Shown here: positions 5,636 to 43,480 of the stretch, in pieces
Layout of the letters: each line of letters opens with the position of its first letter
Numbering within the stretch: position 1 is the first letter of the stretch
Source: a virus
Virus record (IMG/VR): IMGVR_UViG_3300017719_000015
Coordinates: 1 to 49,989 of that record
DNA: 49,989 nt
Direction: 5' to 3' (one strand)
Made by a program: the position numbers and the translations under genes
Notes under the pieces: generated by a model
What the model saw: the letters and a program-made list of their open reading frames with translations, nothing else
What the model was told of the DNA's origin: nothing
Database searches by the model: none

Positions 5636-5676
5636 TACTCTACTCAAGCACAACTGAGAAGGGTTTTGGTGAAGTA

Positions 5677-23976: not shown

Positions 23977-24312
23977 TCAACAGTTCCATCGCTTCAAGGA
24001 TGCTCCCTTTGGTGTCAATTTACCACCTTTGCTGGTCGGGCCTTTGACACCCGACATGCGAGCGCAAAACGACTTACGACGCTTCGCCTTCTTTGAACCG
24101 GGCTTGAGTTTGCTTGGCTTGGTTGTCACAGGAGGTTTGAGGTTTGCACCACTCTTACGCTTGGCGGCGGCACGACCCTTAGCGTTCAGTCCACCTTTCT
24201 TACTGTGCTTATTTGGGTTATAACCATGAAATGGTTTACTTTTTTTGGCCTTCATTACAGCGAAAGCAAGGTCAGCAGGTGAGCAACAATCACAAAAGTC
24301 AAAGTCCGTCAT
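23977..24312 (-). CDS. DUF6321-like basic protein
   Basis: 111 residues, very basic (Lys/Arg more than a quarter). The C-terminal half reads GGLNAKGR, then SFCARMSGVKG, then SLKRWNC, the hallmark of the small phage family I know as DUF6321, whose role is not established. C7, C9 and C10 near the start may add a metal site. Such proteins often sit among virion genes and may bind DNA or act in packaging. The start overlaps the stop of the giant gene by four bases (ATGA). Confidence 0.85.
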   Translation of the reverse strand: MTDFDFCDCCSPADLAFAVMKAKKSKPFHGYNPNKHSKKGGLNAKGRAAAKRKSGANLKPPVTTKPSKLKPGSKKAKRRKSFCARMSGVKGPTSKGGKLTPKGASLKRWNC

Positions 24313-27300
24313 GCTCCATCACCACTGTGGTCTGTAGAATTGTAGTCTACATCTCCTTTATGTCCTTTTGGATGAAGGGATTGAGAGAAGCGTGGCTGGA
24401 CGCTGTAATCCATCCTTTCTTCCTTTGTTTCGCCTTCTTTATGTGCACGCCTACGAGGTGCATCAGCACGATAGTGCTGTAGTGTATTTTCACTCATCAC
24501 AACACGAGTCACTTCGTTGTCCAATTTTGTCGAGTCGAATCCACTGGCACTTGTTCCGATAATCTTTGGTCCTTTACTTACAGGTGTGGCATCATTACTG
24601 GATATATCCATAACATACAACGGGGCGTATGGTGGGTTACTGTCGGGGTTTGTAGCACGAATGTAATTTCCACTTGCCGCTCGACCGTTAAGAATCTCGT
24701 AAATGTACATACCGTATTTACCTCCACCAGTAGCGGAGAAGTAATTACTACCAAATTGTGGGCTTGAAGAGTGAAGACTGTTGTTAGGACGGAACATCTC
24801 AATGTGTTGTTTATCGAGCAAACGAACAGGGCGCATCATGTATGTTACACTCTTATCAGTAAGATTTGTTTGTTGTGATGATGCGTCGAATGTACTCGTT
24901 TCGTATGGATTAGATGTTTTGTTAGAGCCGGTGATACCGCCCCAATCTTTGTCGTTAATTGGTTTGACGAAATTACGAGATTCAGCAACATATGTACCAC
25001 CAAGTGGACTGAAATTAGAAGTGTGACTAAGGCGCATTGCACCACCTTGGGGTTGTCCAGCGAAGTTAATTCCTGTTAAGTCGTAGTGACCGATGGTTTG
25101 TGAACCTGCTTGCATACCACCTTGTAGTACCACACGCTGTCCTACACCACGGTCAGTGTGTAGGCTGTGTGCCTCAGTGTTAATGGCGATAAGGTTGTCA
25201 TCAACTCCCTCTATGTTTTCAGTATCGAGTCCGATACGAGGGCTACTACGGCTTACAGCATCTTTGTGTGGTGAGTCGCCACTTACTGTTTCAACACGGT
25301 CACTTACTACCGCTTCGGGTTTGAGCAATCCATCTTCGGCAATGTTGAGGCGTGCACTGATACCACGAGGTACTTCATCGGGTTGTAGCACATCATTGCG
25401 TGCACGAATAAATCCGTCATTCATGTTAGGCTCGGAGGTATGATGTGAAAGAACAACACCAGTAGCGTGATATGGCTCGTCAAGTGCTGTAAGTACATCT
25501 TCATTGAATGCTGTTGGGTATCGTAGACCACGCCCGTGCCCATCATCACCAACTCGGTGAGCGTTGGTAGGGAAGTACACATCGACTAACTCATTAGCAT
25601 TGTTTGTGTTCACATCATTCTTACGACCACCAAAGCGTGGAATGGTGGAATACGGCGAACCGCTTAAATTACCACTTAAGCCAGCAACCAACAATCCTTT
25701 CATGTTTACAACCGGCTTACCACCGTTGAATAGACGCTGATATGGTGTAGCGTCGTTTGTTCTATCATATTCATACACATCTGCCGCATCCCAAGCAGGT
25801 CGAATACCGAAACCACGAACAGGGTGACGGCGAACCTCTTCTCCACGAGTGTTACCCCACCAATCTACCAAATAATATCCCACCGCTTCATCAATCTTAG
25901 CGATGTTTTTAGCATTTATGTCACCCCACCAATCACGAAGTACGGTTTCTTTGTTGCGTAGTGTACGCACAGGGCAACCAAATGGTCGTGCAATACGCAT
26001 ACCATCGCTATATCGCACTTGGAACTCCGGTTTATCCACTCCAAGCATACCACTGAAATTAGTTTGCCGCTCCATAATACCAATTTGAGTATTAGGGTAT
26101 GTACCGTTAGTAAGACCACTACCACCAGCGTATGTCCATGTTTCAGTTTCACCTTGTACCAATGGTCCGTGTGGATAACCACTGCTAATGTCAGTTACAG
26201 TTGTTCCACCAAGTACCGCTTGTTCACGGAATGCACGCATACCATACAACGACCACTGTGGTTTGTTGTATGGTTGGCGCAAGCCAATACGATACCCAAA
26301 CGGACGGGTGCGTGTAGGATTACTAATCCCGTCATAGGATGTTTTGGTAATACCGTTAGTTACAACATAAGAGCCATCATCATCAGCATCAGTCCAAACA
26401 GGTCCATCAAAGGTGTATTCTCTCGGATAATCCCATGCGGCGGATACATATCCGTACCCGTCAAGGCGACTAACTAACGGCCCGCCACGACTACCACACG
26501 GCCAAAAGTGATTAAGCATGGTTTTGGTTGAGGCATCACTGCCATCATATTGACCACCTTGTGGGGCGAAACTACGCACACCCACAGCATGAACAGTATC
26601 TAATTGTTGAGCACTTGCCATCCCACCCGTACCATCTACTTTGATGGTGGAACCAATGGCAATAGGATTCACTATGTCTTGTGATACATTTAAGACACCA
26701 CTCAAGATATTGTCACCCGCAACATCAAATGTTATTCCGTTCACTGATATTTGGTATCCAAAAAGAGAAGCAGTACGCCGAGTTGTAGTGATGGTTTTTG
26801 CAACTGGGTCAACTGCTGTCACGGTAGCCGCCACATCTGTACCTACAGTAGCATGTGCGATTACATCAAACGGAGGTGATAGGGTCTTTCGGTGGAAAGC
26901 GAATGGACCCATGCTGGCATAATATGTAGCATCGTGGTAGTGAACAGTTTCAAAGTGTTCGGGCATACTGTTAAGTGGTTTTTGTGCTACTGCCCTGTCC
27001 AATAGTGGATTTAACCATGTGCGACTGGAATCCGAATAGAAGGTGTGGGGGCGACCAAGATTTGGATGCCATAGGCAAAGGAACGCATCGGCCATGTGTA
27101 GGCTATTTGTATCACGACTTCCTTGCAACATTTGTGGTAAAATTCGAGTAACCATACTCGACAAGGAATCAGTGAAGATAGCACCTGCGGGACGGAAATC
27201 ATACGCACGGGTAAGCCGCAATTTTGTACCTACTTCTATATTGTCGGTGAAATCAGCATTTGCAACAACGGTGAATTGTTTTGGCTTATTCATGTTAGTT

Positions 27301-30300
27301 GAGTCGTACCCACTACGCTCAGTGTAAGTGTGAGTGCGGCGCACGCCGTTTGCATCTATGTATTCCAACTTGTTGCCGTAGTACGGTTTCTGTGGGAAAC
27401 CACGAGCATCATCTACAGTGATAGTCGTGGCACTCGAAGCAGGGTTCACGGTAACAGTACACACAGGGTTGAGGCTAATGTTCTCAAGCACTTCGTGATA
27501 TATGTCGGGATGGATACTTGGGTATCCTGCGAGTGTGATTTGGCAAGCAATACTACCTGCACTTGCACGAATAAATTCGTAGTAATTGTCAAGACGATGA
27601 TGATTGAGATGGCGGAAGCCAGTAGCATCAACATGGTCGGGTCCATCTTTGTGTACAATACTCCACCAAGGTATGTTAGTTGTCATACCCGGTGAGGATT
27701 TAACAAACATCTGTGGGTGATATGGTAATGACCGCTTAACAAACGCAGGGCTTTCAGTCGCTTGAACACCAAGCGGGTTATACAACATCAAAGGTGGTAT
27801 GTTGGTAAATTGACTACCGTGGTCGGGGTCGTGGTCAATGATAAGTTCGTTGATAAACACTTCACAACCTCTCACATCTGCTGATGTAGCCTCAGCCAAA
27901 ACCAATCCTACACCACCAGTAGCGGAATCGGGTTCACGCAAACCGACCACTAAAGCAACTTGTTGACCCGTCAGTTCATCAGCACCAGTATTTTCATGGA
28001 AACCAATTAACTGTGATTTGAACACATTCGGTTGAATGACAATTTGATACGCACCTACTTCGGAAGGGTCGGGGAAGTGCTCTCGTAGTGTGTATGTACC
28101 AGCGGCTTCAAGCACAATTGTGTGTCCACCAGCGGCGTTTACTACACCTGCTTGGCCTTCGGACGCAAGAACGCCGTAACCGTCACTGCGAATCTTAGAT
28201 TCAAACATCAATGTGAACGCCCCACCGTGAATGTCACTTGGGCCACTTGGAGTGGCAGTAAGTGACCCGAATGTATGTTGTGTGTCATAACCGTACAAGT
28301 TATCTGTAAGAGTGGATGAAATATCACTCATCAAATCATCCATATCTTGCTCTTCCATAAGCAACCTTTCATGGTGTTTAACAGTAGCAGAACGAATTGC
28401 TTGGTGTTTATTGTATAACCCTTGATATGCAGGGTGGGCAAAATGACCGGGTAGTACAGCCATAGTAGGTGTAACGAAGTGATGACCCATACGAGGTAGA
28501 GCCAATGGACTCATCTTAGGCACTTCATACATTGCGTGAGCAAGCAACGCATTGAGTGTATGATTATCTTTGTACAGTGTATGTGCCATGTCGGGGCTGT
28601 TGCCACTCACTTCTGCATGGTCACGCAATCTGCGTGAAGCAAAGAATCGAGTGCTACCAGCAGGAATATAATACGATGGTACCACCTTAAGTGCTGTTAT
28701 ATCACCAGCAATCAATTCAGCGAAATCAGTGTCACCTACACATCCTGTAAAGGTAGAACCAGCGATACCTGTGAATGATGCTACACCACCCTTGTCTGTT
28801 GTTGGATTGTAAAGTCGTAAGAACTTTCGTCCATCACGAATTGATTCGTTATACAGTGTAGCGTTGGGTGCGGTGTTTACTGTAAGAGTGGTACCGCTGT
28901 ATGACACACCTGTTAGTTCGTTGTTAGTCACACCATCATTATGAGTATAGTAGGTTGGGTGGCGATGGCTGTGCGTGTTACCATTCTTAGTCACATGGAA
29001 GAATAGCGTGCGGTCATGTAATTCGTATGATGTTTCAAGCGGTGCGTGACCTGTAGCGTTTTCCCAACCCGAATGGGTGGGGTCGGGGAATTGGCTTTGA
29101 CTGATGTGTTCCCAATTGTGGTCACCAAATGTTCCGCCGAGTCTTGGCCCCTTTGTTTCATCAGTAAATAGATGTTTTAGGCTGTCCTTTGAAAGTGGTC
29201 GAGTCATACCACCTGTGCCCATTGTTTCGTTTTGATATGCTTGTAATCTGTCAAATCCACTACGAATGATTAGATTACCGGGAATAGAGTCGGGGTGTGG
29301 GAGCCTTACCTTCATGTTAGGCTCAATGCCACTACCTGCGATTGCTGGTGCTAATCCTTCCGCACTACGGTCGGAAACTGTGTTAAATGTACGGATAACG
29401 GTACCAAATGGTGAACCACCTTCGATAACATGCATTTGTCCTGTATCATCCTCTACCTGCATTTCCTCAAATTGTAATTCCTCGTTTGGTATTGACAACA
29501 CATTTCGCAACTCATCGGGATGACTTGCGGCAAGTTGAGGATGAGAAAGTTCCTGTGCTTGTATGATTGGGAACATAGCACTGTTAGTGGTTTCAAAGGA
29601 GAAGCGATTGATACCGTACAGTTTTTCTCCTGTAGTGTAACCTGTTGCACCTGTTACTCTCGTGATGAACGGTACAGCACCTAAACCACGAGCGTTGACA
29701 GCAGGAAGGCTGAGGTTTCCACCATCCATACGCTTCCAAACAATATGTTCGACTGTGAAGTTTTTAGCAGGTGAGCGTTGATTCATCTTGAAAGCATTTG
29801 TGTCACCAAGCCAATAGTTTGCATCATCGCCGTATCTGTCAAGTTCTGCGCTTGTGCTTGTTTTCTTATCATTAATGATGTTTCTCTCAATGTCAGTTGT
29901 GCTTTCCAAGAAGAAACTACCCGGACTTTTATCCAAATCGAAGAACAAATCACCAGTCATTGCAAGACACGGTTCCGCATTGTTCAATTCAACATCACCA
30001 CCTATCGCTCCATTGAAAGTAAAAGCACTGCTTGGAATATCATCTGTAGGCTTTGTTGTATCCGTAACAAGTGCTTCGATGTTAGGACCACCGTGTGCTG
30101 GTGCAACAAACCTGTCAACCCCATGCATACGCTCATCCCATTGCGTGGTGCCCGCAAAGGTGATTGCTGTCGATGCGGCGACTGATGCGCCTGTTTTCGA
30201 TACTACAGCCAACCAATCTCCCGTAGCCGTAATACCATCACGGTCACGCTTTGCTACGAGAGCCATTTCACCTTCGTATGATACTACGAGGAAACCACGG

Positions 30301-33300
30301 GAAAAGACACCTTGTTGATGATGAAGTGTTCTTGGAACAGCATCAGCATCAGCGATGTGAAGTGGGTTGGCAAAGTATGTAGAATCTTCCGCATCAGTAT
30401 ATGCCGCCGCCGCAGTGGTTGTGTAATCCCAAGAATAAGGAGTAGTAAGAATACTATCGGAGTTTGCTCTATTGTTCAATACACCACTCGCTTCGGGCGA
30501 ATTTTGCATTGGAGTGAAGTGAGGTAGGTGACCGAAGGTACTCATAACACTTGAAGCAGGGCCGTATGGGGAGAAGCCCAACATAGGGTGCCATGCACCA
30601 AGACCTGCCCCATACCCTTCTGTACCCACCCTTAGCGAGTTAAGATACGAATAACGCTCTCCTGCCCACCCTACGGCTCCTGTAGGGCGTGTGCGGTCTA
30701 TCGCATCCACAACACCGCTAAAGTGTACACGAGTCATGTGGTTGCGTGTAGCATCATTGTAGTTGTTGAAGTAGTTCACACCCGACTTACTCCAAATGTA
30801 CAACTTAGTTGGTGCTGGTGAACTGAACGCAGGTACAGTTATTGTTGTTGCACTTTCGCTTTTATTGTGCCAAGTTGTCATATCTTCAAACTGTGCTAAT
30901 CCAGTGATTCTGTTTGGAGCAAGCCAAAATCGTACAGTCCATGTACCGCTGTTATCATACACTTCACGAGAATGATACGGAGCGAATGCAGGACAGTCGC
31001 CCGACCCATGCACTGGTCGCCCACCCGCATCGGTACGAATCCAACCACACGCAGGTAACTGTTCAAGCAAGTCTTGTGTACCACCTGTCATGGTTGCTTC
31101 AATGAAAGATTTAGAGGATGAAGCGGTGTCGTTTGTGTATGTCGTATAATTTAATTCAACCCAACCATATCGGTCTTGTCGCATAGCATTACCCATCGAC
31201 GGCATGAATGTACCACCCATGGCTTTGAGTGCACCTTTGCCGGGGTTTTCGTTGATGGCTTGACCTATGATAGTCGCCAGTTCCTCACCGTTTTGACAGC
31301 GTGTAGCGTCAATAGCAATTATCTCACGATTGAAATTTGTACTCTCTTCGTTAAGTGTACCATCAAGTACAATCTTAGCCAACGGACCCGATACACGGAA
31401 AGCGGTTGGTTGCATAACATTGTTCAGTTTAACAACCTTGTAATCTCCACTTTGCATTGGTGGATTGAATGACAACTGGTTGTCCATCCAAGAACCACCG
31501 GGGTGATAACCACCGTCCATGTGGAAAGTCATATCAGCACTCATGGCTATACCGTAGTACCCAATAGCACAATGTTGGTACGGGTGCGCCTTTCTGTAGT
31601 CAGCATCGTTGTTGGCCACTACTTTACCAGCAATCGGATTGATGAAGTGTTCACCGTAATGATGACCGTGTTCGGGTCGTTGATGTATCCCGTAGCCTGT
31701 GGATGTACCCGCACCGATGTTTGGAATTCCTTGAGGCGGCGACCAATTCAAAGTGGTATTCCAATGGAATCGTTGACGGCGAGATTGATAATTTGCATCG
31801 GGTGGCCCGTAATCACCATCATTATTGGTGATTTCATTAGGAAGATTCTTGTTGACAGGAACCTTACTCCAAGTATTCCCTGTAGTCACGACATATCCGG
31901 GGTGTGGTTCTACATCACCAAGTGTACCAGTTGCGGTTTCGTAGAATGGGAATGCTTGCCCCGGTCCATAAACAAGGTAAGAAGTAAAATAGTCAGTGTT
32001 TGTTTTATGGTCAACATATCTTGCTGTTTGATGTGGCATACGAATGACCAATGGAACAGGTCGTTGCCTCACAATACCGTTTGTGTAGCGAGCAGTAACA
32101 TGTGACGGTTGACCCGATGCCAAGTTTGGTAGTGTACCAGCGTCAATGTCCGGTGAGAGAATGTTATCTTGATTGTAAGCAGGTGGGTTGATACTACCAC
32201 GATGTTGATTGAGATAAGGTGTACCGGGGAAGAACGCCAACAAAGCGTTACAATCCATTAATGCGTATGCAGTGCTAATTTCATTGGCGTTTTGAATACC
32301 TGCTGTACCTGTAGGTCCGGTCGAGTATGGATGTGTGTAGAATGACGAGTAATCGTTTTGTGAACCATCGTTTACATCTAACACCACACCACTAAATCCA
32401 CCACCGAAATACAGTGGTACACTGTGGTCGTTACTATCTCTTCCTCCTTTGAAGTAGGTGATAGGCTCGCTCTCTACACTACCGTACAAACGATAACCGC
32501 TAAAGGCCTTGTCAGCGTGAAGCATTAAGAGAACATCTGCCCTATCCGTATCAGCGGTGGGTCTAAAGTGAGTATCCCAAACTTCGTTATACATTTCGGG
32601 GTCGGGTTCTCCCACAAGTTCAAGTTTGGTTGCTGAATTAGCACCTTGAACAGAAGTTACAGTAGCGAATCTATTACTTCCCGACCAAATGACTTTCGCA
32701 TCTCCAAACGAAACGAGTTTGTTTTTGAGGTTGAATGTTGCGCTTTCTTCACCTGCTGATACAAGGATGTGTGTTATCAGTTCATTTGAATTAGTTGTAA
32801 ACTCTTTGTTACCCCAATCATAGTCAGCAGTTATCAAAGCGTTATCAAGGGCAGGTAAAATGTGGTCGCCCATCTTTGAAGTGTAATTCAACCCCTTGAG
32901 GTTATTTGCCCATGAATTAGTTGGCACTGGGTCGTTGTACGAATCAACAAGAATAGGGGTGGGAGTATTTGCGTGATAACCACGAGCCTTAGTACGAATT
33001 TGTAAAACAGTACGAGGTATATATCCACAATCTGCTTTACGATGGTTATCTTCTATGTCTGCATCACTTACGGGATAAAGTTCCGTCTTATCACTTATCG
33101 TTACGACGAATGTGGTATCCACCTTTTGGTACTCACCGAACTCAAGATGTGGGGCTTCTATACCCAAATCGTGATGTAGGGACGCTTCAAACATAGTAGA
33201 GAGTGGGCGAGCACCACGCTGTGGATTATGTGCACGAATCTTGATAGCGTCAGCAGTAACACCCCATTCACCAAATGTTCGACCATCAGCCGCATACATG

Positions 33301-36300
33301 TGTCGGCAATCGAAAGATACACCGTCGTCTATGTTCGGGTTTACAAGGTTGATTGCCTCGGTAGTAACCGCCGCAAGTAACTCATCGGTCACCAGTGTAG
33401 TCCAATTAATTCGTGGTGAAATAAGTGCCTTGATGATGCGGTCTGTAGACGCATTGAACATAGAAACTGCTGTGTCAGTGAGTGATGCGGCACCAAGGGT
33501 TGCTAAAGAGTGTGAGGCTGTGAATTGGCTTCCTCGCACTCCGTAAAAGATGTGAGTGCCCGCACCGTCTAATTGAGTACGACTTTCGTATGAGATGACA
33601 TTTCCCACGCTACCTACATCGGATGTGGTGGTGAAGGGGTCGGTGATTTGTATAACTCCATTTTGACGAGGGAAACCAAGATAACCAAGGATGTCGGGGT
33701 GGTAGCCAAGTTCCGCTAACAAACTGTCGAATGGCGCACCGAGTTGAACGGTTAATGTGGTTTCGCTGGCATCCCACGATATATCGCAATCAATACCAGC
33801 AGAAGGAGCATACACACCTCGCCATTGGTTACCTCGCCAACTGTTCTTGGTTACTGTTGAAACATCAAGACGACCTGTAGCGTCACCAAATCCAAGCATG
33901 TGTTGACCGATGGTAAAACCACCCTTAGCCACATCTCCGTCATTAAAGTACACACAAATTTCGTCTTCTATGGTTGAAGGGATGGTGGTTAAGTCATTAG
34001 CAAATGACTCATTCATTTTACGATATACAAATCGTACACCGTATCCTTGCCCTCGATGGTCTGTGAAGCGGAAACCGTATAGAGGCGTATCTCCTACAGC
34101 GTCATCAATCACATCTGTGGTTTTCACATGCCCGCTATAATTGTTGATTGGGGTTGGTGAAGCACCACCGACTGATGTACCTTCATTGTATAACACATCA
34201 AACTGAGTATCACCCTTACGACCAAGACCGTGCTTACCCGCTAAAGGTGAAAAGCCGGGTACACCCGATGCTACAAGACCACCGAAGTTGATTCGACCAA
34301 CTGCCTTCTTACCAACTCTCAATCCTTTTACAAGGGCCGTTGAAGGGCTTTGAGTTTCAAACGATTCATCGTTGATACTGTTGTGTGAAATGCCTCCAAG
34401 ATGTGCTGAGATATTACGACCCTTTGGGTTACTCACATCATTGAGCCTAACTGTAATATCGTGATTACTGGTGAACGCTTCATCCGGCTCTTCCTGTGAA
34501 ACAAACTCTCGTAGTGTTGTCACTGGTGCGAATGGGCGACCATCTTTGTTGAGCGGCATAGGAGCAGGGTGCATGTTTTCACCCAACATTTCATCGGGTT
34601 GTGCCCAAAAGTTTCGGAATCGCCCACCGTGACCAATAAGGAATTGTGGTTGATAAGCCGATTGACCCTTACTGTTATCAAGCCACACACAGAAGTTACG
34701 GCCCGATGCGCCCGGAATAGTCGAGTGAATGATGATAGAGTACCCTTCGTTACCGTTAATGTCTTCTACAACCCTTCCAAGATGCGCTCGTACATATCCC
34801 ATGTGGGAACCACGGTCATGTGAATCAAACGCAATGTCACCATACCAAAACGGTGCGGGGTCGTAAGTAGAACCTGTGGCTGAGAAATCAGCATTGATGT
34901 GGGCTGATGTTGGGTCTTTGTTGGGGTCAGCAATATCTTGCCTCACACCAATACGAGTAAGGTCAAGTCGCTCGCTTTCACCGGGGTATTGACCCGAAGG
35001 GCGACGGGCGTGAGTTCGACCGTTGGGTGCACCGCCTTGATTGACAAGACGCACTACTTCTTTCGCCGCCGCCTCAATATCTGTAACACCTTCTTTGACC
35101 CCAACTTCTCCTAAATCAAGACTCATACGACGCACGAAATCCATCTCAGTCCAGTGTTTTAGGTGTTGTAGTCGAGTTTCCTCATGGTTTCCGAGGTCGA
35201 GGGTCGTATTCCTCTTCCCTTTTAATGAGAGGAAAGCCGAAATGACACGAGTACCATCCGGTGTATCAAAGAGCGTACTTGCGTCCTTGAGTGAGTGAGT
35301 AGCAGGGTTTTGTTGCGCTCTATGTAATTTGAGTTTACTTAACAAAGCGTTTCCTTCTTTTTCTTTGCGAATCAATTTATGCGCTTCATTAGCATAGTAA
35401 ATAGATGCAACTGCTGGTTGAACTCTTGGAAGTGAAGAATCGCCCACGGTATGTGTGTTGCTGGTTTCTTCATGATACAGTCCAGTATGAACAAAGTGTC
35501 CGTGTCCTTTACCTCGCAAAAGAGGATTATGCCCAAGGTCTACACTTGGGTCTTCTAAAGTGTATTTAGTATGAGAAGAAGTTGAGTTACCAAGTAGGTC
35601 TTGAGAACCTGTGTTTGGTACATTGTGTGCGTATGCGCTTTCAATGAATTTAGATTGCTGAGTTGAGCGTAGGTACTTGTTTTCCGAAGGGAAACCGTTC
35701 GCTACATCGAGTTGAGTTGTAAAGTAGTGAGGTGCCCCACCGTTGATACTAACAAGGTGTTTGTCAAGTTTGAGTGTACCACCCTCATACGCAATATCTC
35801 GACCGAATCCTACACCGGGTGTAGCGGCACTTGATTGAACTTGCATATGTAAATCATGGAAAGCGATGAACTCACGGTCATGCCCAACATCAAAGAGTAA
35901 GACACGGGCATTACCATCAGTTGAGAGGTATGGGTCGATATAGGCCACGGTAGGTGCTTGAGTGGCATCCAATCCCATAGCCTCGTAATTCATCTCAACT
36001 GTCTTGTTGACATGTTGTGCAAAGTTTTGTGCTGTTTCAAGACACGAGTTCCCAATAAGGAAGTTTTCAAGTGGAATCGAATCTCTTGGTCGATTAGCCA
36101 ACACCCCTTGACCACCGTTGAAACCCCTCCATACAGCCGCTTCATTAAACACGCCGCGACTCTTTGCAAACAAACCTTCTATGGCGTGTGGGTTGTTCAA
36201 TGTCATGTTCATCCATACAGTGTCACCGTTGCGTAACCCACCTTGAGCGTAAGGGTACAACCAACTACGGTTGAGAATTGCATCATAGTCTTCTTCTATG

Positions 36301-39300
36301 ACCGTACCAACCCCGATACGAACCTTGTCGTTATTGCTAATTGCTACAATGTTGTTCGCTGTGAGAGTAATTTTTGTATTTGTTCCTGTTATGAGGTCCG
36401 ATTGTACAGCACTCACGGTACCCACATAAAGTGTATTAAGAGGACTTGAGCCTGTTTGCTTGAACAACTTATCACCCTTGCGTATATTCACACCAATAGT
36501 ATTAGCGTGAGCAAAACGATTGCTTGAACTTGTCAAGGTAATATCAAGAACTGTAGTAGAATCAGCGGCAACCGTACCACCATTTGTGAATTTCCATTGT
36601 TCGGCTGATGTAACTGGATAGAAGGTATTGAGTTCTTTTTCCACAAAAGTCATATCAGTTGGATTATCTACAGCGTCCAGCATTCGTCCTGCTCTTTTTA
36701 ATCTAAAATCTACATCAACTAAATCGCTAAGTGTGAAAGATAAATTAGGTCGAGTAATCACTTGAATGGAATTAGAACCACTGTTAGCATCAAATTTACC
36801 ATAATACAACACTTCGATAGGTGTTGTTAGCATGATTTCTCCTACAAACATCAAGTCACCAAGTATAGGGTCAAGAAGTCCCGTTGAACTACGAGTCCAA
36901 GGTACATCGGGGAATAGACTTGTATCTTCTAACACAATATTCAATAAATATCCCGTTGATGCACTACCGCTAAATTCCTGTACTTGTAGAATTTTTGAGA
37001 TAGGACGCTTTGTTACAGTGCGTGGTGCGTGAGGATTAGCGAGTGGTCCTGCCTTGAACTCCACCGCACTTACATATTGACGCAAACCGTAGTCAAGGTT
37101 ACCACCTTGTGTTTTTACATTCGCCATATCATAATAATAAGGTGAGCGACCTTCAATATCCGAAGAAGGTAATTCTACATCGGATGCCACAGGAACAAGT
37201 GTTTCGTTACGGAATCCTGCCGCTGTGTAAATTTTAGTACCCACTATTGCGTTTTGGAAGAAAGTTTCGGAATGACCATCGTGATAACCGCCTGTAGCGT
37301 TTTTGGGGATTCGCAGGTATCCATTTGTAGGTGCATCATTGTTGTAAACACCCCATTCACCATTAGATAAAAACACCCTGCGTAATCGTTGGATGCCTTG
37401 TAAATTACCTATCTCATCAACTGATGTGGATGCGGGGAACATCTTAGGATGTGAAACATATACATCAGCATAGTTTGTGCTTTGAATTATCTGTAAAATA
37501 GTAGCCGACTCAACATGCTTTTTGTTGTTAATACTGTACGAATATGCCGAATTAGCACTTTTATCGGATACTCCAATGTCATCAGCACGACGACCAACGG
37601 GTGATGCATTCCATGTGTGAGCCGTATATGTAGCATCAATATGCAATTTCATACTGTTATCGGGACCGGGGAAGACCCCTGCTTCGGTATGGTCAAAAAA
37701 TTGCTGTGGGAATACAGGAATTTCAACCATAGAACGGGTGCTTGCGAACTGCGAGCCGAGTTGGTAATCATGAGTAACCGTATCCAGCGATTGGAACAAA
37801 CGGTCATTGACAGTGCTACCGTCTTGTGCTAAGGAATCATTATCAAAATCACCATCATTGTACACATACACCGATGTGGTGTATGTCCCAAGAATACCTT
37901 GAGTGTACAAACCAGTAGCGTTTGCCCATTCGTGGAATGAAGAATATGCGGTACCCGCCGCATCCAAATATGTTCGATTAGCGACGGCATCAGTACCAAC
38001 GAAAAGGAAACCCGTACCAGTTTTTGATGTATAAGCGGCACTCGCTCCATCATCAAGGTAAATTCGCCCTACCTTTGGGAAACAAATAGTACCCCATGAT
38101 TTTGTGTCGGGAGAATCGTTGTTAAGTGGTCGAACACTGAGCGTTCCATTATTACCTGCTGATTGTGCTACTGTTGCTTGTACTGCACAATTACGGCGTG
38201 TAGAACCCGGCAAACGCATCAATGGGCTTGGGTCAAAGGTAGGCTTTGTGTTGATGCCACCTTGTCCGGGGCCACCAAGCGTCACTGTGACAACAGGAGC
38301 GTTAGGCTCAATCTCTTTCACCACATGAGAATCGGGTGAGCCGCTACCTACTACCGACACATTTTCGTTGACGAAACTCTCGGCTATACCTGTAGCAGTG
38401 ACGACCACTGTTGACATGTTGCTTTCGGGGCTTTCTTGCTTTGATACTCCACGAATACGACACCTGCTCATAAGGAACATGATGCTTGCGATATTAGGGT
38501 TCCCACCACCAAATGTGGTACGAACTAAGGATAATTGGTTTACTCGTGATTTAACGGATGGTTGAACAAATATTCTTGCCATTACACCTGCTTGGTTAGT
38601 AACCATCACATTGTCAATTATATTGAACATTTCAAAGACACGAGATGATTGAGTAGTAGTACCGAGGTCAAACACACCCGTACCTGTATTTGTTGTAGAA
38701 GGTTGAAGTCTTTTTGTCCTTGCTCCAATGTCTTGCATTGAATCCTTTGATGATATACTCATGGCTTCAATAGCGAGTCTGTGGTACACTGATTCGTGAG
38801 TGCCCGTGTTATGTGAACGCTTAACCGCTGTAGGAGGCGATGCTGGTTCTGCATTTACATCGTTCACAGGAGTGTACAAAGCAGGTGTACGACTGTAATC
38901 CAATTCCGTTTCACTGTCTTGCCCACCAGCGTTATCACCAATCAGTGTGTGTGACTCTTGCATAAGGCTTCCATAACCACTAACAGCATTGGAGATTGAA
39001 ATAATCCCGCCGGGTGAGTATAGTGTGGTATTAGCAAGGTCGGAGTTTATCACATCCAATACTCTTGTACCACTACCCAAATCAAACGACCCTGCTGGCA
39101 CAGTCTTAGTAACCATGAGCATAGGTTTGGTCTGCCCCATGCTCGCCCCTGTAAGGTCTATGGCGTTATAATGCACTTCGACATACGGAGCAAGGTTATG
39201 TGATGTACGCAGTGCAGGTACATGAAGAAGGGCAACTCGACTTTCTGTTTCGGGTGTGAGATGAAACAAGCGATTGTTTTCATTAATATTGTCTACATCG

Positions 39301-41048
39301 ACCACTGGACCCTTAAGGAAGAATGGTAAATAATCGAATCCAGCACCACCAATTGCGATGAGTTCTTTTTTACTCACTGGCATACCATTATCTACAACAG
39401 TAGCAACAGGAGATGAATTATTTATACGAACTATGGGTGCTTCAAGCGTTTCACTGTAAAAATCCACCAGTGAGTTCATTGTAAACATCTCATCTAAATT
39501 ACGAGTGTTTGAATCATAGGCCATTTGCACTACATCGGCGGAACCGTCTGCTTGCTGGTCAAGCGTGAGTTCAGTAGGTTTGGGGTATCGACGCATGTAT
39601 TCATGTCCCACAATGTGAGAGAATGTGTGTCTACCACTGTGACCGACTTGGAAGAGAGTGTCAAGTGTGGTTGGCCATGTAACAGCAAATGGGTTGGTTG
39701 TTGTATCTGTAGCCATTTGTGAGGAATAAACTAAACCGTGGTTTTGGTATGCGCTTTCATCAAGCACCATTTGGCCTGTCTTATCAAAAATTTGTGTGCC
39801 GTAATGTGGCGGTTGGTATGGTTTACCAGTCCCGTTGTCAATCAATGAATCAGCCCCAATAACAACGAAGTAGTTGTCAATGTTGGCTGTACGAGAGTGA
39901 AGAGCACCACGGAGGCCATTCGTTCCGTTAATGAAGTCAATGTGTATGCTGTTGAAAGTGACAACACCAGTGCTCCCATTGATGCTTTCAAGTCGCACCC
40001 GTTCGGGTGGGGATTGGTTGGGCTTCTGTGTATTACGATTAATTGCACCGGGGTTAATGAGAAGGTTGTATGGGGTGTGTGGAACAGCAATCGTCGCCGC
40101 AGTACCACTGTTTGTATAGTAATCCACCACCTTGTAATTACCCATACTATACGGTGTGGTTGTGAAATCGACAGTTGGAGAAGAAGCATCGTAGGCTTTA
40201 CCTGTTAATCGTGCGATGAGTGCTTGAGCATCAGTCGCCGTCATTGTAAGCGTTGTAGTATTCGCAGTAAACGCTGAAAACTCATATGTACCATCAATCA
40301 CATCTATTGGTTCTTCAAATCGGAAAAGCGCAGAAGTAGTGTTTCCTTTCACAGCCATCGACGGTTGAATCATATTTTCATCAAATTCATTTGAGAAATG
40401 TATGGCTTCTATAGCACCACGAAACTCACCACCCTTACCGCCAAGATACACATGTTCTGTAGAGCGTGCAAGTCGAGTTTCTTTTGGTGTTTCCTGCTGT
40501 GAAACGATTTGTCCGTTGACGGCAAGGAACACCTTATTTTTGGTGATACCTGCGACAATATGATACAGCGGTCGGTTGTTGAAATTCAAATTTGTAGCAT
40601 CGTTGTAGTTCGATGTATCATACCTGTTGTATGAGTCATGCATACCACCGTGAGTTTGTTGTGGATAAACAGTCCCATCCCATCTCGTAGTGGCATCAGT
40701 AGCAGTGGTTAATTCAAAGTATGATGAGCCGTGTATTGATTCAACTTGTACAGTAAATTTTGCTGGACCGGGGGTGTCAATTGTACCCATTTCCAAAGTG
40801 AATTGCCCTTCACGATGTGCTACTACGCCACCACAATCGGGAACAACCCACGCTTCGATTACAAAGTCAGTAATCGTTTTACCATTAATTGAAACAATTT
40901 CACCACTACCCTGTAGTGTCTTTGTCATAACTTTGTTTCCACTACCGTCTTCAACACCAGTACCAGTGAATTGCCCTTGCGGGATAATTACAGAATCGCT
41001 CACGCCATCGAAGAAGAAAGCGTGACTACTACGACCAATTGCAACCAT
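24309..41048 (-). CDS. Giant tail protein, 5,579 residues, with N-terminal LamG-like domain
   Basis: One uninterrupted 16,740-base frame, about 600 kDa assuming 110 Da per residue. The first about 230 residues look like a LamG/concanavalin-like beta sandwich: FFFDGVSDSVIIP (11-23), a WVVPD strand, and near the end VYLGGKGGEFRGAIEAIHFSN. Such domains bind sugars. The rest is a long series of beta-rich, Gly/Asn/Thr/His-rich segments without obvious enzyme motifs, and with strands like TVTVNPASSATTITVDD. The gene lies between the distal-tail protein and the baseplate hub, where phages encode the central fibre or tip. It probably forms a large host-contact or tail-tip structure. GAGGTGA lies before the ATG. 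It ends in a hydrophilic tail rich in His, Asp and Lys. Confidence 0.95.
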   Translation of the reverse strand: MVAIGRSSHAFFFDGVSDSVIIPQGQFTGTGVEDGSGNKVMTKTLQGSGEIVSINGKTITDFVIEAWVVPDCGGVVAHREGQFTLEMGTIDTPGPAKFTVQVESIHGSSYFELTTATDATTRWDGTVYPQQTHGGMHDSYNRYDTSNYNDATNLNFNNRPLYHIVAGITKNKVFLAVNGQIVSQQETPKETRLARSTEHVYLGGKGGEFRGAIEAIHFSNEFDENMIQPSMAVKGNTTSALFRFEEPIDVIDGTYEFSAFTANTTTLTMTATDAQALIARLTGKAYDASSPTVDFTTTPYSMGNYKVVDYYTNSGTAATIAVPHTPYNLLINPGAINRNTQKPNQSPPERVRLESINGSTGVVTFNSIHIDFINGTNGLRGALHSRTANIDNYFVVIGADSLIDNGTGKPYQPPHYGTQIFDKTGQMVLDESAYQNHGLVYSSQMATDTTTNPFAVTWPTTLDTLFQVGHSGRHTFSHIVGHEYMRRYPKPTELTLDQQADGSADVVQMAYDSNTRNLDEMFTMNSLVDFYSETLEAPIVRINNSSPVATVVDNGMPVSKKELIAIGGAGFDYLPFFLKGPVVDVDNINENNRLFHLTPETESRVALLHVPALRTSHNLAPYVEVHYNAIDLTGASMGQTKPMLMVTKTVPAGSFDLGSGTRVLDVINSDLANTTLYSPGGIISISNAVSGYGSLMQESHTLIGDNAGGQDSETELDYSRTPALYTPVNDVNAEPASPPTAVKRSHNTGTHESVYHRLAIEAMSISSKDSMQDIGARTKRLQPSTTNTGTGVFDLGTTTQSSRVFEMFNIIDNVMVTNQAGVMARIFVQPSVKSRVNQLSLVRTTFGGGNPNIASIMFLMSRCRIRGVSKQESPESNMSTVVVTATGIAESFVNENVSVVGSGSPDSHVVKEIEPNAPVVTVTLGGPGQGGINTKPTFDPSPLMRLPGSTRRNCAVQATVAQSAGNNGTLSVRPLNNDSPDTKSWGTICFPKVGRIYLDDGASAAYTSKTGTGFLFVGTDAVANRTYLDAAGTAYSSFHEWANATGLYTQGILGTYTTSVYVYNDGDFDNDSLAQDGSTVNDRLFQSLDTVTHDYQLGSQFASTRSMVEIPVFPQQFFDHTEAGVFPGPDNSMKLHIDATYTAHTWNASPVGRRADDIGVSDKSANSAYSYSINNKKHVESATILQIIQSTNYADVYVSHPKMFPASTSVDEIGNLQGIQRLRRVFLSNGEWGVYNNDAPTNGYLRIPKNATGGYHDGHSETFFQNAIVGTKIYTAAGFRNETLVPVASDVELPSSDIEGRSPYYYDMANVKTQGGNLDYGLRQYVSAVEFKAGPLANPHAPRTVTKRPISKILQVQEFSGSASTGYLLNIVLEDTSLFPDVPWTRSSTGLLDPILGDLMFVGEIMLTTPIEVLYYGKFDANSGSNSIQVITRPNLSFTLSDLVDVDFRLKRAGRMLDAVDNPTDMTFVEKELNTFYPVTSAEQWKFTNGGTVAADSTTVLDITLTSSSNRFAHANTIGVNIRKGDKLFKQTGSSPLNTLYVGTVSAVQSDLITGTNTKITLTANNIVAISNNDKVRIGVGTVIEEDYDAILNRSWLYPYAQGGLRNGDTVWMNMTLNNPHAIEGLFAKSRGVFNEAAVWRGFNGGQGVLANRPRDSIPLENFLIGNSCLETAQNFAQHVNKTVEMNYEAMGLDATQAPTVAYIDPYLSTDGNARVLLFDVGHDREFIAFHDLHMQVQSSAATPGVGFGRDIAYEGGTLKLDKHLVSINGGAPHYFTTQLDVANGFPSENKYLRSTQQSKFIESAYAHNVPNTGSQDLLGNSTSSHTKYTLEDPSVDLGHNPLLRGKGHGHFVHTGLYHEETSNTHTVGDSSLPRVQPAVASIYYANEAHKLIRKEKEGNALLSKLKLHRAQQNPATHSLKDASTLFDTPDGTRVISAFLSLKGKRNTTLDLGNHEETRLQHLKHWTEMDFVRRMSLDLGEVGVKEGVTDIEAAAKEVVRLVNQGGAPNGRTHARRPSGQYPGESERLDLTRIGVRQDIADPNKDPTSAHINADFSATGSTYDPAPFWYGDIAFDSHDRGSHMGYVRAHLGRVVEDINGNEGYSIIIHSTIPGASGRNFCVWLDNSKGQSAYQPQFLIGHGGRFRNFWAQPDEMLGENMHPAPMPLNKDGRPFAPVTTLREFVSQEEPDEAFTSNHDITVRLNDVSNPKGRNISAHLGGISHNSINDESFETQSPSTALVKGLRVGKKAVGRINFGGLVASGVPGFSPLAGKHGLGRKGDTQFDVLYNEGTSVGGASPTPINNYSGHVKTTDVIDDAVGDTPLYGFRFTDHRGQGYGVRFVYRKMNESFANDLTTIPSTIEDEICVYFNDGDVAKGGFTIGQHMLGFGDATGRLDVSTVTKNSWRGNQWRGVYAPSAGIDCDISWDASETTLTVQLGAPFDSLLAELGYHPDILGYLGFPRQNGVIQITDPFTTTSDVGSVGNVISYESRTQLDGAGTHIFYGVRGSQFTASHSLATLGAASLTDTAVSMFNASTDRIIKALISPRINWTTLVTDELLAAVTTEAINLVNPNIDDGVSFDCRHMYAADGRTFGEWGVTADAIKIRAHNPQRGARPLSTMFEASLHHDLGIEAPHLEFGEYQKVDTTFVVTISDKTELYPVSDADIEDNHRKADCGYIPRTVLQIRTKARGYHANTPTPILVDSYNDPVPTNSWANNLKGLNYTSKMGDHILPALDNALITADYDWGNKEFTTNSNELITHILVSAGEESATFNLKNKLVSFGDAKVIWSGSNRFATVTSVQGANSATKLELVGEPDPEMYNEVWDTHFRPTADTDRADVLLMLHADKAFSGYRLYGSVESEPITYFKGGRDSNDHSVPLYFGGGFSGVVLDVNDGSQNDYSSFYTHPYSTGPTGTAGIQNANEISTAYALMDCNALLAFFPGTPYLNQHRGSINPPAYNQDNILSPDIDAGTLPNLASGQPSHVTARYTNGIVRQRPVPLVIRMPHQTARYVDHKTNTDYFTSYLVYGPGQAFPFYETATGTLGDVEPHPGYVVTTGNTWSKVPVNKNLPNEITNNDGDYGPPDANYQSRRQRFHWNTTLNWSPPQGIPNIGAGTSTGYGIHQRPEHGHHYGEHFINPIAGKVVANNDADYRKAHPYQHCAIGYYGIAMSADMTFHMDGGYHPGGSWMDNQLSFNPPMQSGDYKVVKLNNVMQPTAFRVSGPLAKIVLDGTLNEESTNFNREIIAIDATRCQNGEELATIIGQAINENPGKGALKAMGGTFMPSMGNAMRQDRYGWVELNYTTYTNDTASSSKSFIEATMTGGTQDLLEQLPACGWIRTDAGGRPVHGSGDCPAFAPYHSREVYDNSGTWTVRFWLAPNRITGLAQFEDMTTWHNKSESATTITVPAFSSPAPTKLYIWSKSGVNYFNNYNDATRNHMTRVHFSGVVDAIDRTRPTGAVGWAGERYSYLNSLRVGTEGYGAGLGAWHPMLGFSPYGPASSVMSTFGHLPHFTPMQNSPEASGVLNNRANSDSILTTPYSWDYTTTAAAAYTDAEDSTYFANPLHIADADAVPRTLHHQQGVFSRGFLVVSYEGEMALVAKRDRDGITATGDWLAVVSKTGASVAASTAITFAGTTQWDERMHGVDRFVAPAHGGPNIEALVTDTTKPTDDIPSSAFTFNGAIGGDVELNNAEPCLAMTGDLFFDLDKSPGSFFLESTTDIERNIINDKKTSTSAELDRYGDDANYWLGDTNAFKMNQRSPAKNFTVEHIVWKRMDGGNLSLPAVNARGLGAVPFITRVTGATGYTTGEKLYGINRFSFETTNSAMFPIIQAQELSHPQLAASHPDELRNVLSIPNEELQFEEMQVEDDTGQMHVIEGGSPFGTVIRTFNTVSDRSAEGLAPAIAGSGIEPNMKVRLPHPDSIPGNLIIRSGFDRLQAYQNETMGTGGMTRPLSKDSLKHLFTDETKGPRLGGTFGDHNWEHISQSQFPDPTHSGWENATGHAPLETSYELHDRTLFFHVTKNGNTHSHRHPTYYTHNDGVTNNELTGVSYSGTTLTVNTAPNATLYNESIRDGRKFLRLYNPTTDKGGVASFTGIAGSTFTGCVGDTDFAELIAGDITALKVVPSYYIPAGSTRFFASRRLRDHAEVSGNSPDMAHTLYKDNHTLNALLAHAMYEVPKMSPLALPRMGHHFVTPTMAVLPGHFAHPAYQGLYNKHQAIRSATVKHHERLLMEEQDMDDLMSDISSTLTDNLYGYDTQHTFGSLTATPSGPSDIHGGAFTLMFESKIRSDGYGVLASEGQAGVVNAAGGHTIVLEAAGTYTLREHFPDPSEVGAYQIVIQPNVFKSQLIGFHENTGADELTGQQVALVVGLREPDSATGGVGLVLAEATSADVRGCEVFINELIIDHDPDHGSQFTNIPPLMLYNPLGVQATESPAFVKRSLPYHPQMFVKSSPGMTTNIPWWSIVHKDGPDHVDATGFRHLNHHRLDNYYEFIRASAGSIACQITLAGYPSIHPDIYHEVLENISLNPVCTVTVNPASSATTITVDDARGFPQKPYYGNKLEYIDANGVRRTHTYTERSGYDSTNMNKPKQFTVVANADFTDNIEVGTKLRLTRAYDFRPAGAIFTDSLSSMVTRILPQMLQGSRDTNSLHMADAFLCLWHPNLGRPHTFYSDSSRTWLNPLLDRAVAQKPLNSMPEHFETVHYHDATYYASMGPFAFHRKTLSPPFDVIAHATVGTDVAATVTAVDPVAKTITTTRRTASLFGYQISVNGITFDVAGDNILSGVLNVSQDIVNPIAIGSTIKVDGTGGMASAQQLDTVHAVGVRSFAPQGGQYDGSDASTKTMLNHFWPCGSRGGPLVSRLDGYGYVSAAWDYPREYTFDGPVWTDADDDGSYVVTNGITKTSYDGISNPTRTRPFGYRIGLRQPYNKPQWSLYGMRAFREQAVLGGTTVTDISSGYPHGPLVQGETETWTYAGGSGLTNGTYPNTQIGIMERQTNFSGMLGVDKPEFQVRYSDGMRIARPFGCPVRTLRNKETVLRDWWGDINAKNIAKIDEAVGYYLVDWWGNTRGEEVRRHPVRGFGIRPAWDAADVYEYDRTNDATPYQRLFNGGKPVVNMKGLLVAGLSGNLSGSPYSTIPRFGGRKNDVNTNNANELVDVYFPTNAHRVGDDGHGRGLRYPTAFNEDVLTALDEPYHATGVVLSHHTSEPNMNDGFIRARNDVLQPDEVPRGISARLNIAEDGLLKPEAVVSDRVETVSGDSPHKDAVSRSSPRIGLDTENIEGVDDNLIAINTEAHSLHTDRGVGQRVVLQGGMQAGSQTIGHYDLTGINFAGQPQGGAMRLSHTSNFSPLGGTYVAESRNFVKPINDKDWGGITGSNKTSNPYETSTFDASSQQTNLTDKSVTYMMRPVRLLDKQHIEMFRPNNSLHSSSPQFGSNYFSATGGGKYGMYIYEILNGRAASGNYIRATNPDSNPPYAPLYVMDISSNDATPVSKGPKIIGTSASGFDSTKLDNEVTRVVMSENTLQHYRADAPRRRAHKEGETKEERMDYSVQPRFSQSLHPKGHKGDVDYNSTDHSGDGA

Positions 41049-41057
41049 ATATTCACC

Positions 41058-42233
41058 TCAAAATATCCAGTCAATCGGTGCAAAGTTAATGGTGAAAGAG
41101 TATATCGGTTCACCGCCAAGTTGCACAAATGTGGCGTTGGCCACAGTGCCTTTAATTCCTGTGTAGTGTCTTTCACTTGAATCAAATTCTGTACCTGTTG
41201 CTAAAGCATTATCAACGGTTTTATCAGTTGTTTGTTTAAAACTACCAGTAGGCATGTAAAAAATAGATTCACGGTTATTTACATTTGAAGAAAAAGGAAT
41301 TTGAATTGCAGTGATATAATCACCATATTTGGTATCGTAATTCGCTTGATTGATGCCACCAGCGACACCAACTCCTGCACCTGCGAGCAACAAACCTATT
41401 CCACCAGTTGCTATACCCGCACCAATCGCACCACCAGCAACAGCCGCCGTCGCAACCATCGCTCCCATTCCGCCGTTGTTGCTGTTGTTAAGCACTGCGA
41501 AAAGTTCAGCAACTTTGTCACCTGCGCTTTTGTTAGTGACTTGAGAACTATTTCTTCCACCAGCAAACTGCACATGTTTTGGTTGGTATGGGAAAATTGT
41601 TAAATCAACAAAACCATCGTTCAAATTCATAATGTCGTTTCCATTTAAATTTAGGTCAATTGTCGTCATTGTGACAACGCTACCATTTCTTATGCTTTGA
41701 AATTTCCAAGTGTTTTTGTTTGTAGCAATCAATTGATGTAGACTTTCTGCAATTTCATCAGCGGTACGGTACGCACTACCCGTAAAGACCGAAATGTAAT
41801 GTCTACCACCTACAAAACCTCGGTCACTACTATGTTGTGTAAGGTAAATCTTAACGGTGTTTATTTCAATAAATGTTTTAGCGTGTGCAACTCCCGCATC
41901 ATCAGCCGATGGAACTGGTGCTATAATTGCATCAATGTTGGCACTGCTTACCCATGTTTGAACATGAAAACCGGGGTCTTGCACCTTTGCAAAATCAATC
42001 GAACCTACAGCGTCTTGTGCAATACTATTCATATTTAGAATGTCATCATCAGTCATAACCCCCTCAATAGTGATGAGCGACTTGGGTAGGTTGAGGTCAA
42101 AGGCAAAGCGATTGCCACCTGCAAACGGCATAGCGAGGGGTGACACACCCCTATCAACATTCATGGTGAGGGTGGTAGCCATGAGTTCGATGATACCACC
42201 ATCATTGCGTACAAGGCGTATTGGCGTACCCAT
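41058..42233 (-). CDS. Distal tail protein with glycine-rich hydrophobic segment
   Basis: 391 residues, coded directly after the tape measure. The N-terminal part (IRLVRNDGGIIELMATTLTM) and C-terminal part (IYSFTINFAPIDWIF) are beta-rich, as in distal tail proteins that join the tube to the tip. Between them, residues 254-294 form a Gly/Ala/Val stretch (AVAGGAIGAGIATGGIG, LLLAGAGVGVAGG). It resembles a glycine zipper or fusion-peptide helix hairpin able to enter a membrane. The segment may be hidden until the tail meets the host membrane, or it may simply pack in the tube. The start overlaps the tape measure stop by one base (TGATG). Confidence 0.8.
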   Translation of the reverse strand: MGTPIRLVRNDGGIIELMATTLTMNVDRGVSPLAMPFAGGNRFAFDLNLPKSLITIEGVMTDDDILNMNSIAQDAVGSIDFAKVQDPGFHVQTWVSSANIDAIIAPVPSADDAGVAHAKTFIEINTVKIYLTQHSSDRGFVGGRHYISVFTGSAYRTADEIAESLHQLIATNKNTWKFQSIRNGSVVTMTTIDLNLNGNDIMNLNDGFVDLTIFPYQPKHVQFAGGRNSSQVTNKSAGDKVAELFAVLNNSNNGGMGAMVATAAVAGGAIGAGIATGGIGLLLAGAGVGVAGGINQANYDTKYGDYITAIQIPFSSNVNNRESIFYMPTGSFKQTTDKTVDNALATGTEFDSSERHYTGIKGTVANATFVQLGGEPIYSFTINFAPIDWIF

Positions 42234-43480
42234 CAGTACCGCCCCCTCATGGTTGAGCCGCCAATGTTACGGGCCATTTCTTGTTGAATCATATTACCAA
42301 TCTCACGGGCCAGCGCACGCTTGTCAGTGCGGTCTGTGATGCCCGATGCGTTCACGGTGACATTGACTGTACCGCCGCCCATACCAGCACCGCTTGGGTT
42401 ATTACGCTGGCTTAGAGGTACAACGGCTTCGGGGCCGTCCTCACCAATCATGGCAAGTGTAGGTTTATTCACGATACCACCCTTAGCCAATTGAGGTATT
42501 TTCCAATCCGAAAGGTTGACATTATAACTTTCCCCACCAACCACAGGTACCCAATCGGGTATTGAAATGCTGAAATCCACAGCACTGAACGCCGCATTGA
42601 TACCGGAAATCAACAAGTTGAAGGGTGCCTTAACAATATCTCCAAGAGTCAAACCTTCAAACAATTCAGTAATTCCTGTTCCTACATCTGTAAATGTACC
42701 AATTGGGTCGTCAATCAATTTCTTAATGAAATCCCAAGCATCGCCCGCAAGTTCAATACCAAAATCAATGTAATCTCCAATGGAAATGCCGAATACACCT
42801 TGGAATAAATCAGCGATGAATTTGAATGGTTGAGGCAACGCCCCAATAGCCAAATCCAATCGGTCACCGATACTGAATCCAGCAAACGCTCCGTCACCAG
42901 TCATAAAGTCGATAGTTGTGGTAAGCCAATCGGGAAGGTCGAAGGCGAAATCAAGCCGCTCGGAGAGGGAGAAGCCCGCAAACGCACCGTTGCCAAGAAT
43001 GAAATCAACTGTAGTCAACAACCAATCGGGTAAAGCGAACTCAAAAATTTCACCCCAACTCGGCATTTCAAAGTCAAACAAATCAACCCAGTATTGCTTG
43101 GTAAACACATCGGGTGCATCGGGTACTAAGTCCCATACAGCCACAAGCCACCCAACAACAGTTTCACCTATACTCGTGAACAATCCTGTCCAAAAGTCAA
43201 TTGTAAAAATTGGTGGAGGGTTTGGTAGTAAATCGAAGAAGGTGCTAAAAATACCACCAACAAACTCCATAAGGGCAGTGAAAGCATTTGTGGCTGATGT
43301 TGTCACGCTATCCCAAGAAAGGTTGTCAATAAAATCTCTCATCGGTTGAATTAAGTTAGAGTTAAACCATTTCATTAAATCTGTAAATGCGTTGATTGCC
43401 ATTGTGCCAGCGGCTTTGAAGCCCGGACCAATCTGTGACACCATGCTGGACATGGAAGAAATCATTGAAATTAACGACAT
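42233..43480 (-). CDS. Tail tape measure protein (short)
   Basis: 415 residues. The C-terminal LAKGGIVNKPTLAMIGEDG followed by PEAVVPL is a strong signature of tape measure proteins. The N-terminal part is helical and hydrophobic (MISSMSSMVSQIG, FTALMEFVGGIF). Residues 150-213 hold two 32-residue repeats built on LPDWL.TT.DF and GAFAGFS. With about 1.5 angstrom of tail per residue, a common rule for siphovirus tails, the tail tube would be about 60 nm, assuming no other gene contributes. GGGAGTGA precedes the ATG. Upstream are the two chaperone genes usual at this spot. Confidence 0.88.
   Translation of the reverse strand: MSLISMISSMSSMVSQIGPGFKAAGTMAINAFTDLMKWFNSNLIQPMRDFIDNLSWDSVTTSATNAFTALMEFVGGIFSTFFDLLPNPPPIFTIDFWTGLFTSIGETVVGWLVAVWDLVPDAPDVFTKQYWVDLFDFEMPSWGEIFEFALPDWLLTTVDFILGNGAFAGFSLSERLDFAFDLPDWLTTTIDFMTGDGAFAGFSIGDRLDLAIGALPQPFKFIADLFQGVFGISIGDYIDFGIELAGDAWDFIKKLIDDPIGTFTDVGTGITELFEGLTLGDIVKAPFNLLISGINAAFSAVDFSISIPDWVPVVGGESYNVNLSDWKIPQLAKGGIVNKPTLAMIGEDGPEAVVPLSQRNNPSGAGMGGGTVNVTVNASGITDRTDKRALAREIGNMIQQEMARNIGGSTMRGRY

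Follow-up and report, generated by a model that had tools for sequence, protein, structure and literature searches.

The window analysed here, a stretch of 49,989 nucleotides, is a complete IMG/VR virus record (IMGVR_UViG_3300017719_000015) whose minus strand carries the tail genes and whose plus strand carries a family B DNA polymerase, a clamp-loader-like AAA protein, and a Cpn60/TCP-1 chaperonin. This gene content agrees with how magroviruses are described in PMC10768690, in PMC12999244, and in an excerpt of PMC10160649, and we use the label "archaeal" because of it. Magroviruses are known solely from metagenomes (PMC12999244). The polymerase matched 516 records in a collection of named phages, all below 60% identity, and the ten listed of these matches are Halorubrum viruses with identities of 23–25%.

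An open reading frame on the minus strand (41058–42233) encodes a protein of 391 residues, which, based on fold matches and gene order, we describe as a tail-tip ring protein of the Dit or baseplate-to-tube adapter type. Directly upstream of it lies the gene for a tape measure protein of 415 residues (42233–43480, minus strand; PHROG 1535, E 7.1e-22), whose hydropathy peaks at 1.59 and which has no membrane-grade segment. Directly downstream, a single open reading frame (24309–41048, minus strand) encodes a giant protein of 5579 residues and takes up about a third of the window; just past it, a protein of 111 residues (23977–24312, minus strand) matches DUF6321 (E 2e-16). Hub or fibre genes commonly sit directly downstream of a Dit-type gene. 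The position next to a tape measure gene is shared by the family: an open reading frame of at least 60 residues was found upstream of the ring gene for 89 of 90 unique proteins, and 82 of these 89 carry a TDxTDK-type motif like that in the tape measure protein of the window. The structural genes searched included none recognisable as a sheath gene.

Sequence searches gave no convincing PHROG, Pfam, or PDB match for the ring protein. One PDB sequence search returned two matches (E 0.37 and 0.8) and another none; searching PHROGs with the family produced three weak matches, each to a single-member group; tblastn of the window protein and the homologue L036 against named phages had no match; and a pattern scan of genome contigs yielded 52 hits with no relative among them. 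We examined the fold with two models, an AlphaFold2 model of the window protein built from 35 family members (model 1, mean pLDDT 73) and a model of the homologue L017, which has a shorter loop (model 2, pLDDT 69). Foldseek alone found zero matches of model 1 in the PDB at E ≤0.001 and seven among predicted viral proteins at the same threshold, one of them named as a major tail protein. The VIA-align lists of both models consist mostly of baseplate, tail-tube, Dit, and Hcp structures, as judged by entry title. Model 1 aligned to 8fqc_U1 with a Z-score of 9.1, to the 80alpha baseplate chain 6v8i_AA with 7.3, and to 9fkb_BA, which is HFTV1 gp41, the "baseplate to tube adapter", with 6.7 (121 residues, 2.2 Å). 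The corresponding scores of model 2 were 9.5, 7.5, and 7.0 (for 9fkb_BA, 121 residues, 2.1 Å), and it also aligned to SPP1 Dit (2x8k; Z 6.2, 120 residues, 4.2 Å). The core of the tail-tube fold was found in both models, with best Z-scores of 9.1 and 9.5; scores of 6–9 are middling by VIA-align's own note.

The single tube domain detected is divided into a conserved N-terminal part (residues 1–82, 41988–42233), defined by the family alignments and by strands in the model, and a conserved C-terminal part (residues 305–391, 41061–41321), which begins with the strand DYITAIQIPF in the alignments and the model. It is interrupted by a variable module, insert 1 (approximately residues 83–224, 41562–41987), recognised from pair identities; parts of the model are of low confidence. 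The modelled insert aligned to the tail-sheath chain 8kee_A over 89 residues with 2.3 Å, and sheath chains also appear in the list of model 2. A conserved helix (residues 237–249, 41487–41525), seen in the 35-member alignment and in the model, precedes a second variable element, the loop discussed below. The tube-fold alignments reach residues 388–391 of 391, so no further domain follows the tube domain, and the C-terminal galectin or OB domain of classical siphophage Dit is absent from the 391-residue protein. Because we find one tube domain with a sheath-like insert, we name the type of the protein, Dit or baseplate-to-tube adapter, with orthology unproven. In the tail tip, such a protein would form a hexameric or pseudo-hexameric ring. 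With middling confidence, the gene product is probably the ring protein through which tail tube and tail tip are joined; the tool results support the gene order and, at that middling confidence, the fold. The preliminary description of the locus had called the product a distal tail protein, which agrees with the tube- and Dit-type fold matches and with the position of the gene, next to and downstream of that for the tape measure protein.

Among the closest known counterparts is gp41 of the archaeal siphovirus HFTV1 (PDB 9fkb), which shares the tube fold over 121 residues (2.1–2.2 Å) and whose gene lies directly behind gp40, the one for the tape measure protein, an order also seen in the window. 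According to an excerpt of PMC12494034, HFTV1 gp41 is a trimer with two homologous domains per subunit that is touched by three folded-back ends of the tape measure protein; in the window protein, by contrast, we found one such domain, with insert 1 and the long variable loop. Siphophage Dit proteins, including SPP1 gp19.1 and the "evolved Dits" described in passages of PMC7291167, are alike in the tube-type ring domain, in being encoded after the tape measure protein, and in having added modules. The window protein differs from them, as far as those passages go, in lacking the C-terminal galectin or OB domain and in carrying its insert inside the ring domain. An evolved Dit has an inserted carbohydrate-binding module; insert 1 of the window protein is present and variable but aligned to tail-sheath chains.

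Within the ring protein, residues 254–294 (41352–41474) form a Gly/Ala-rich hydrophobic stretch, identified by composition and hydropathy. It consists of 15 Gly, 11 Ala, 4 Val, 4 Ile, 3 Leu, 2 Met, and 2 Thr and has no charge, so that the near-exclusive use of Gly, Ala, Val, Ile, and Leu reported earlier holds for 37 of its 41 residues. Among the 32 window genes scored, it is the longest run free of D, E, K, R, N, Q, H, and P (41 residues; the next is 19) and has the highest Kyte-Doolittle mean over 19 residues, 1.73, compared with a peak of 0.83 in the remainder of the ring protein. The stretch is thus an unusual hydrophobic insertion in a distal-tail-type protein of an archaeal-type tailed virus, as had been noticed. 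By convention, an uncharged stretch whose hydropathy over 19 residues reaches 1.6 or more is taken as a transmembrane segment. The hydropathy of 1.73 lies above that value, but the best 19-mer has a crude biological-scale sum of +2.4 kcal/mol.

The glycine-zipper-like hairpin suggested for this stretch is not supported by the analysis. The segment contains four GxxxG pairs against 4.76 expected from composition shuffles, and 12 hydrophobic loops of the family together contain 29 against 39.4 expected; GxxxG is therefore at or below chance, and we rejected the zipper. The looser [GA]xxx[GA] spacing occurs 130 times in the 12 loops against 121.5 expected, a count reached by 9.6% of shuffles. Ten of the 12 loops were scanned with the Pfam glycine-zipper profile, which matched one, that of L037, at E 0.015 and 15.5 bits, short of the cut-off of 27, and a tandem-repeat check gave nothing of use. 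The segment is rich in Gly, and the spacing of its Gly residues is not special. As for the hairpin, the window model places helices at residues 256–275 and 296–303, nearly all below a pLDDT of 50.

The hydrophobic stretch is the version, in this virus, of a hypervariable loop (residues 254–303, 41325–41474) that links the conserved helix to the next strand, as judged from close comparisons and from the hydropathy states of 90 proteins. In the 35-member alignment, it lies between a helix motif, AGDK...N, and a strand motif, DYI..IQIP, both of which are invariant, including A237, G238, D239, K240, and N250. In the wider set, each motif is slightly variable, and the stretch between them is mostly variable in sequence and length. 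The wider set comes from five scans of viral contigs, which gave 135 loci including the window; some contigs were fetched twice, and all counts are therefore made on the 90 unique proteins. One scan took in 80 of 114 stretches, and the counts refer to the loci fetched. We called a loop hydrophobic when its 19-residue hydropathy mean was at least 1.6, a cut applied after a table of 44 sequences had been seen; across the 90 proteins, no value falls between 1.26 and 1.60.

By this measure, the loop is hydrophobic in 27 of the 90 proteins (median length 52) and non-hydrophobic in 63 (median length 34), with lengths from 22 to 70 residues overall. A hydrophobic loop at the same site in other members, the window being one of the 27, means that the stretch is no chance oddity; its absence at that site, which had been named as the observation that would speak against a role in entry, holds for most of the family and not for all. 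The net charge of the non-hydrophobic loops is +3 or more in 31 of 63 and −3 or less in 14 of 63, and these acidic loops are ill suited to gripping a membrane; in the proteins with non-hydrophobic loops, the median net charge outside the loop is −9.5. The case for amphipathic helices in non-hydrophobic loops is weak: 7 of 31 fall below p 0.05, five of them in the related group L049–L057, and the median p is 0.40. On a 90-row tree of the conserved parts, built by a quick method, the loop state changes seven times, at least six of which are forced by supported branches, and a 43-row tree also has seven changes, at least five forced. When we simulated neutral change 300 times, polar residues were as few as observed in 0 to 0.7% of simulations for the pair L027/L033 and the three pairs among L036, L037, and L047; the pairs were chosen because both loops are hydrophobic, and four further pairs, all at 0%, are of unsure common descent. 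From these comparisons, the hydrophobic versions look maintained as hydrophobic. A search of viral contigs with the loop peptide (599 stretches) returned only the L001 contig among the matches listed, and no description of such a loop was found in the open-licence literature searched.

We then compared ten hand-picked close pairs of metagenome contigs in bins of 90 bases, dropping the first and last bin. The loop changes locally and repeatedly and, in some pairs, is almost completely replaced within the same surroundings. It is the lowest bin in three of the ten comparisons, two of them independent. L012 and L020 have a median identity of 98% over 141 bins (about 12.7 kb); their lowest bin is that of the loop, at 40%, the two flanking bins, which also overlap the loop, are at 71%, and the remaining bins are at 88% or above (the last bin, when end bins are kept, is at 70%). 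The L012 loop is a Gly/Ala hydrophobic one, and that of L020 is not. For L097/L099, the median is 99% and the loop bin, at 62%, is the lowest of 141; the cores are identical, the inserts 96% and the loops 45% alike. The pair L102/L099 gives the same picture over 76 bins, with the loop bin again lowest. In each of the seven remaining pairs, including L069/L070, L074/L077, and L052/L053, some other bin falls below that of the loop; it ranks third lowest in L097/L098 and L117/L119 and fifth in L072/L073, and in L065/L070 it is one of 16 bins under 70%. The loops are identical within L017/L025 and within L043/L044. Between the window and L001, the loop is kept (bins at 93–99%) with differences elsewhere. 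Insert 1 varies independently of the loop: window and L001 share 28% amino-acid identity in the insert and 94% in the loop, whereas L012 and L020 have the opposite pattern, with 97% in the insert and 28% in the loop.

A sharp break inside the ring gene was observed in L003/L014, which are identical over about 5.5 kb upstream; this might be due to recombination or to chimeric assembly. Their 1200 bases upstream of the gene, most of the tape measure gene, are identical, their loops are 18% alike, and most of the ring gene differs. Chimeric assembly may underlie differences between contigs.

On these sequence comparisons, the segment is not a conserved machine part, because it is non-hydrophobic in 63 of 90 proteins and because L012 and L020 differ strongly only there. 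The reading we prefer, to which we give an even chance, is that it belongs to a hypervariable, host-facing loop of the tail-tip adapter, with hydrophobic versions that may make contact with the membrane or enter it. The loop, almost wholly below a pLDDT of 50 in the model, would face outward at the tail tip and be tuned to the host envelope, either a surface molecule or the membrane. About 30% of the family carry a long, mostly Gly/Ala-rich hydrophobic loop that could rest on or insert into a membrane; in other members, the loop is shorter on average, often basic, and sometimes acidic. It might help the virus attach to the envelope ahead of tube opening. Since the loop can be replaced without other strongly changed bins among the nearby tail genes, a fit to one nearby partner in the virion is unlikely, and a host-facing role is the simplest inference. 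A more specific form of this reading, which we regard as unlikely, is that the exchangeable versions provide different grips on the archaeal membrane or surface, either Gly/Ala-rich and inserting or short and basic, so that marine archaeal tailed viruses would make membrane contact through the adapter and not the tape measure protein and exchange it to match the host.

A rather unlikely alternative is that the loop packs within the virion against the tape measure protein, the hub, the giant protein, or the next ring, its hydrophobicity serving protein contact. Hydrophobic stretches are usually buried, as this would require. Passages of PMC7291167 describe loops of the 80alpha Dit, one involved in binding the receptor-binding protein and another touching the major tail protein, and an excerpt of PMC8718954 describes an added "alpha-loop" in the tail tube proteins of T4, PVC, and AFP, named for the helix of the tube fold, that bridges sheath and tube neighbours. 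Its equivalence to the loop described here is our inference; in the window family, by contrast with that excerpt, the loop is hypervariable and often hydrophobic. Against packing, the loop of L012/L020 is replaced with no other strongly changed bin in about 12.7 kb, and this speaks for a partner that is either external to the virion or encoded further away; a partner encoded past the compared stretch may have changed together with it. The L003/L014 pair, in which 1200 identical upstream bases accompany dissimilar loops, points the same way, with the possibility that these contigs are chimeric.

We consider it decidedly improbable that the Gly/Ala segment serves DNA entry through the archaeal membrane, as the preliminary description had proposed, with multiple inserted copies making up or lining the passage. 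The membrane-grade hydropathy and lack of charge agree with such a device, as does a tape measure protein that peaks at 1.59, unlike that of T5, where, in an excerpt of PMC10038345, 46 hydrophobic residues of the tape measure protein pb2 are proposed as a channel and the hairpin tip of pb3 is proposed to enter the membrane. T5 is thus similar in having tail-tip parts with hydrophobic residues proposed for membrane entry, but by the same excerpt these are other proteins in other places, and refolding triggered by the receptor has been seen in T5. A GxxxG motif is needed for membrane permeabilisation by the type VI secretion effector Tde1 (excerpt of PMC10240207), which is similar at its N-terminus to certain tape measure proteins, has a glycine-zipper region in common with some of them, and shares with the window a Gly-rich segment and a phage-tail-like delivery context; Tde1, however, has continuous GxxxG copies, one of them shown to matter in that excerpt, and in the window loop GxxxG is not enriched. 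The unfavourable biological-scale sum, the absence of the segment from 63 of 90 proteins, and its absence from L020, a close relative of L012, also oppose the proposal. We also considered whether a hydrophobic loop compensates for a tape measure protein without a membrane segment: a first hint (0 of 12 versus 5 of 31; Fisher p 0.30) became 2 of 27 cases with hydrophobic loops versus 6 of 62 others having a membrane-grade tape measure protein, and we rejected this inverse relation. In the clade of the window, 7 of 13 members lack both a hydrophobic loop and a membrane-grade tape measure protein. A general DNA-entry pore does not fit, since the segment is missing from most relatives without compensation by the tape measure protein; what is left of the proposal is that a host-tuned membrane contact might exist in those viruses that carry the segment. 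Least probable is a weakly constrained, drifting filler whose hydrophobic versions have no function, a very unlikely reading that suits the wide variation in loop length and sequence but not the gap in hydropathy, the scarcity of polar residues relative to neutral simulations in related pairs (chosen as hydrophobic), or the near-complete replacement at 98–99% identity elsewhere, which would be hard to reach by drift alone.

How tailed archaeal viruses cross the host membrane is poorly known. A loop swapped in some pairs amid about 12.7 kb at 98–99% identity would indicate which part of the tail meets the host, and it is a small peptide whose binding to membranes or receptors can be tested. A hydrophobic stretch of one genome should not be read as a conserved entry device.

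The tape measure genes of the family also vary. In L003, L005, L007, and L015, the gene (about 4775–5998) contains repeated units like PDELTYDHYFGEGGVFDWDI; the middle of that of the window differs. A distant group, L049–L057, combines an enlarged ring protein of 575–851 residues with a tape-measure-like gene of just 140–159 residues. In the related group of L039, L041, L043, and L044, the tape measure proteins contain eight to ten strongly hydrophobic segments, the L039 gene being cut by the end of the locus.
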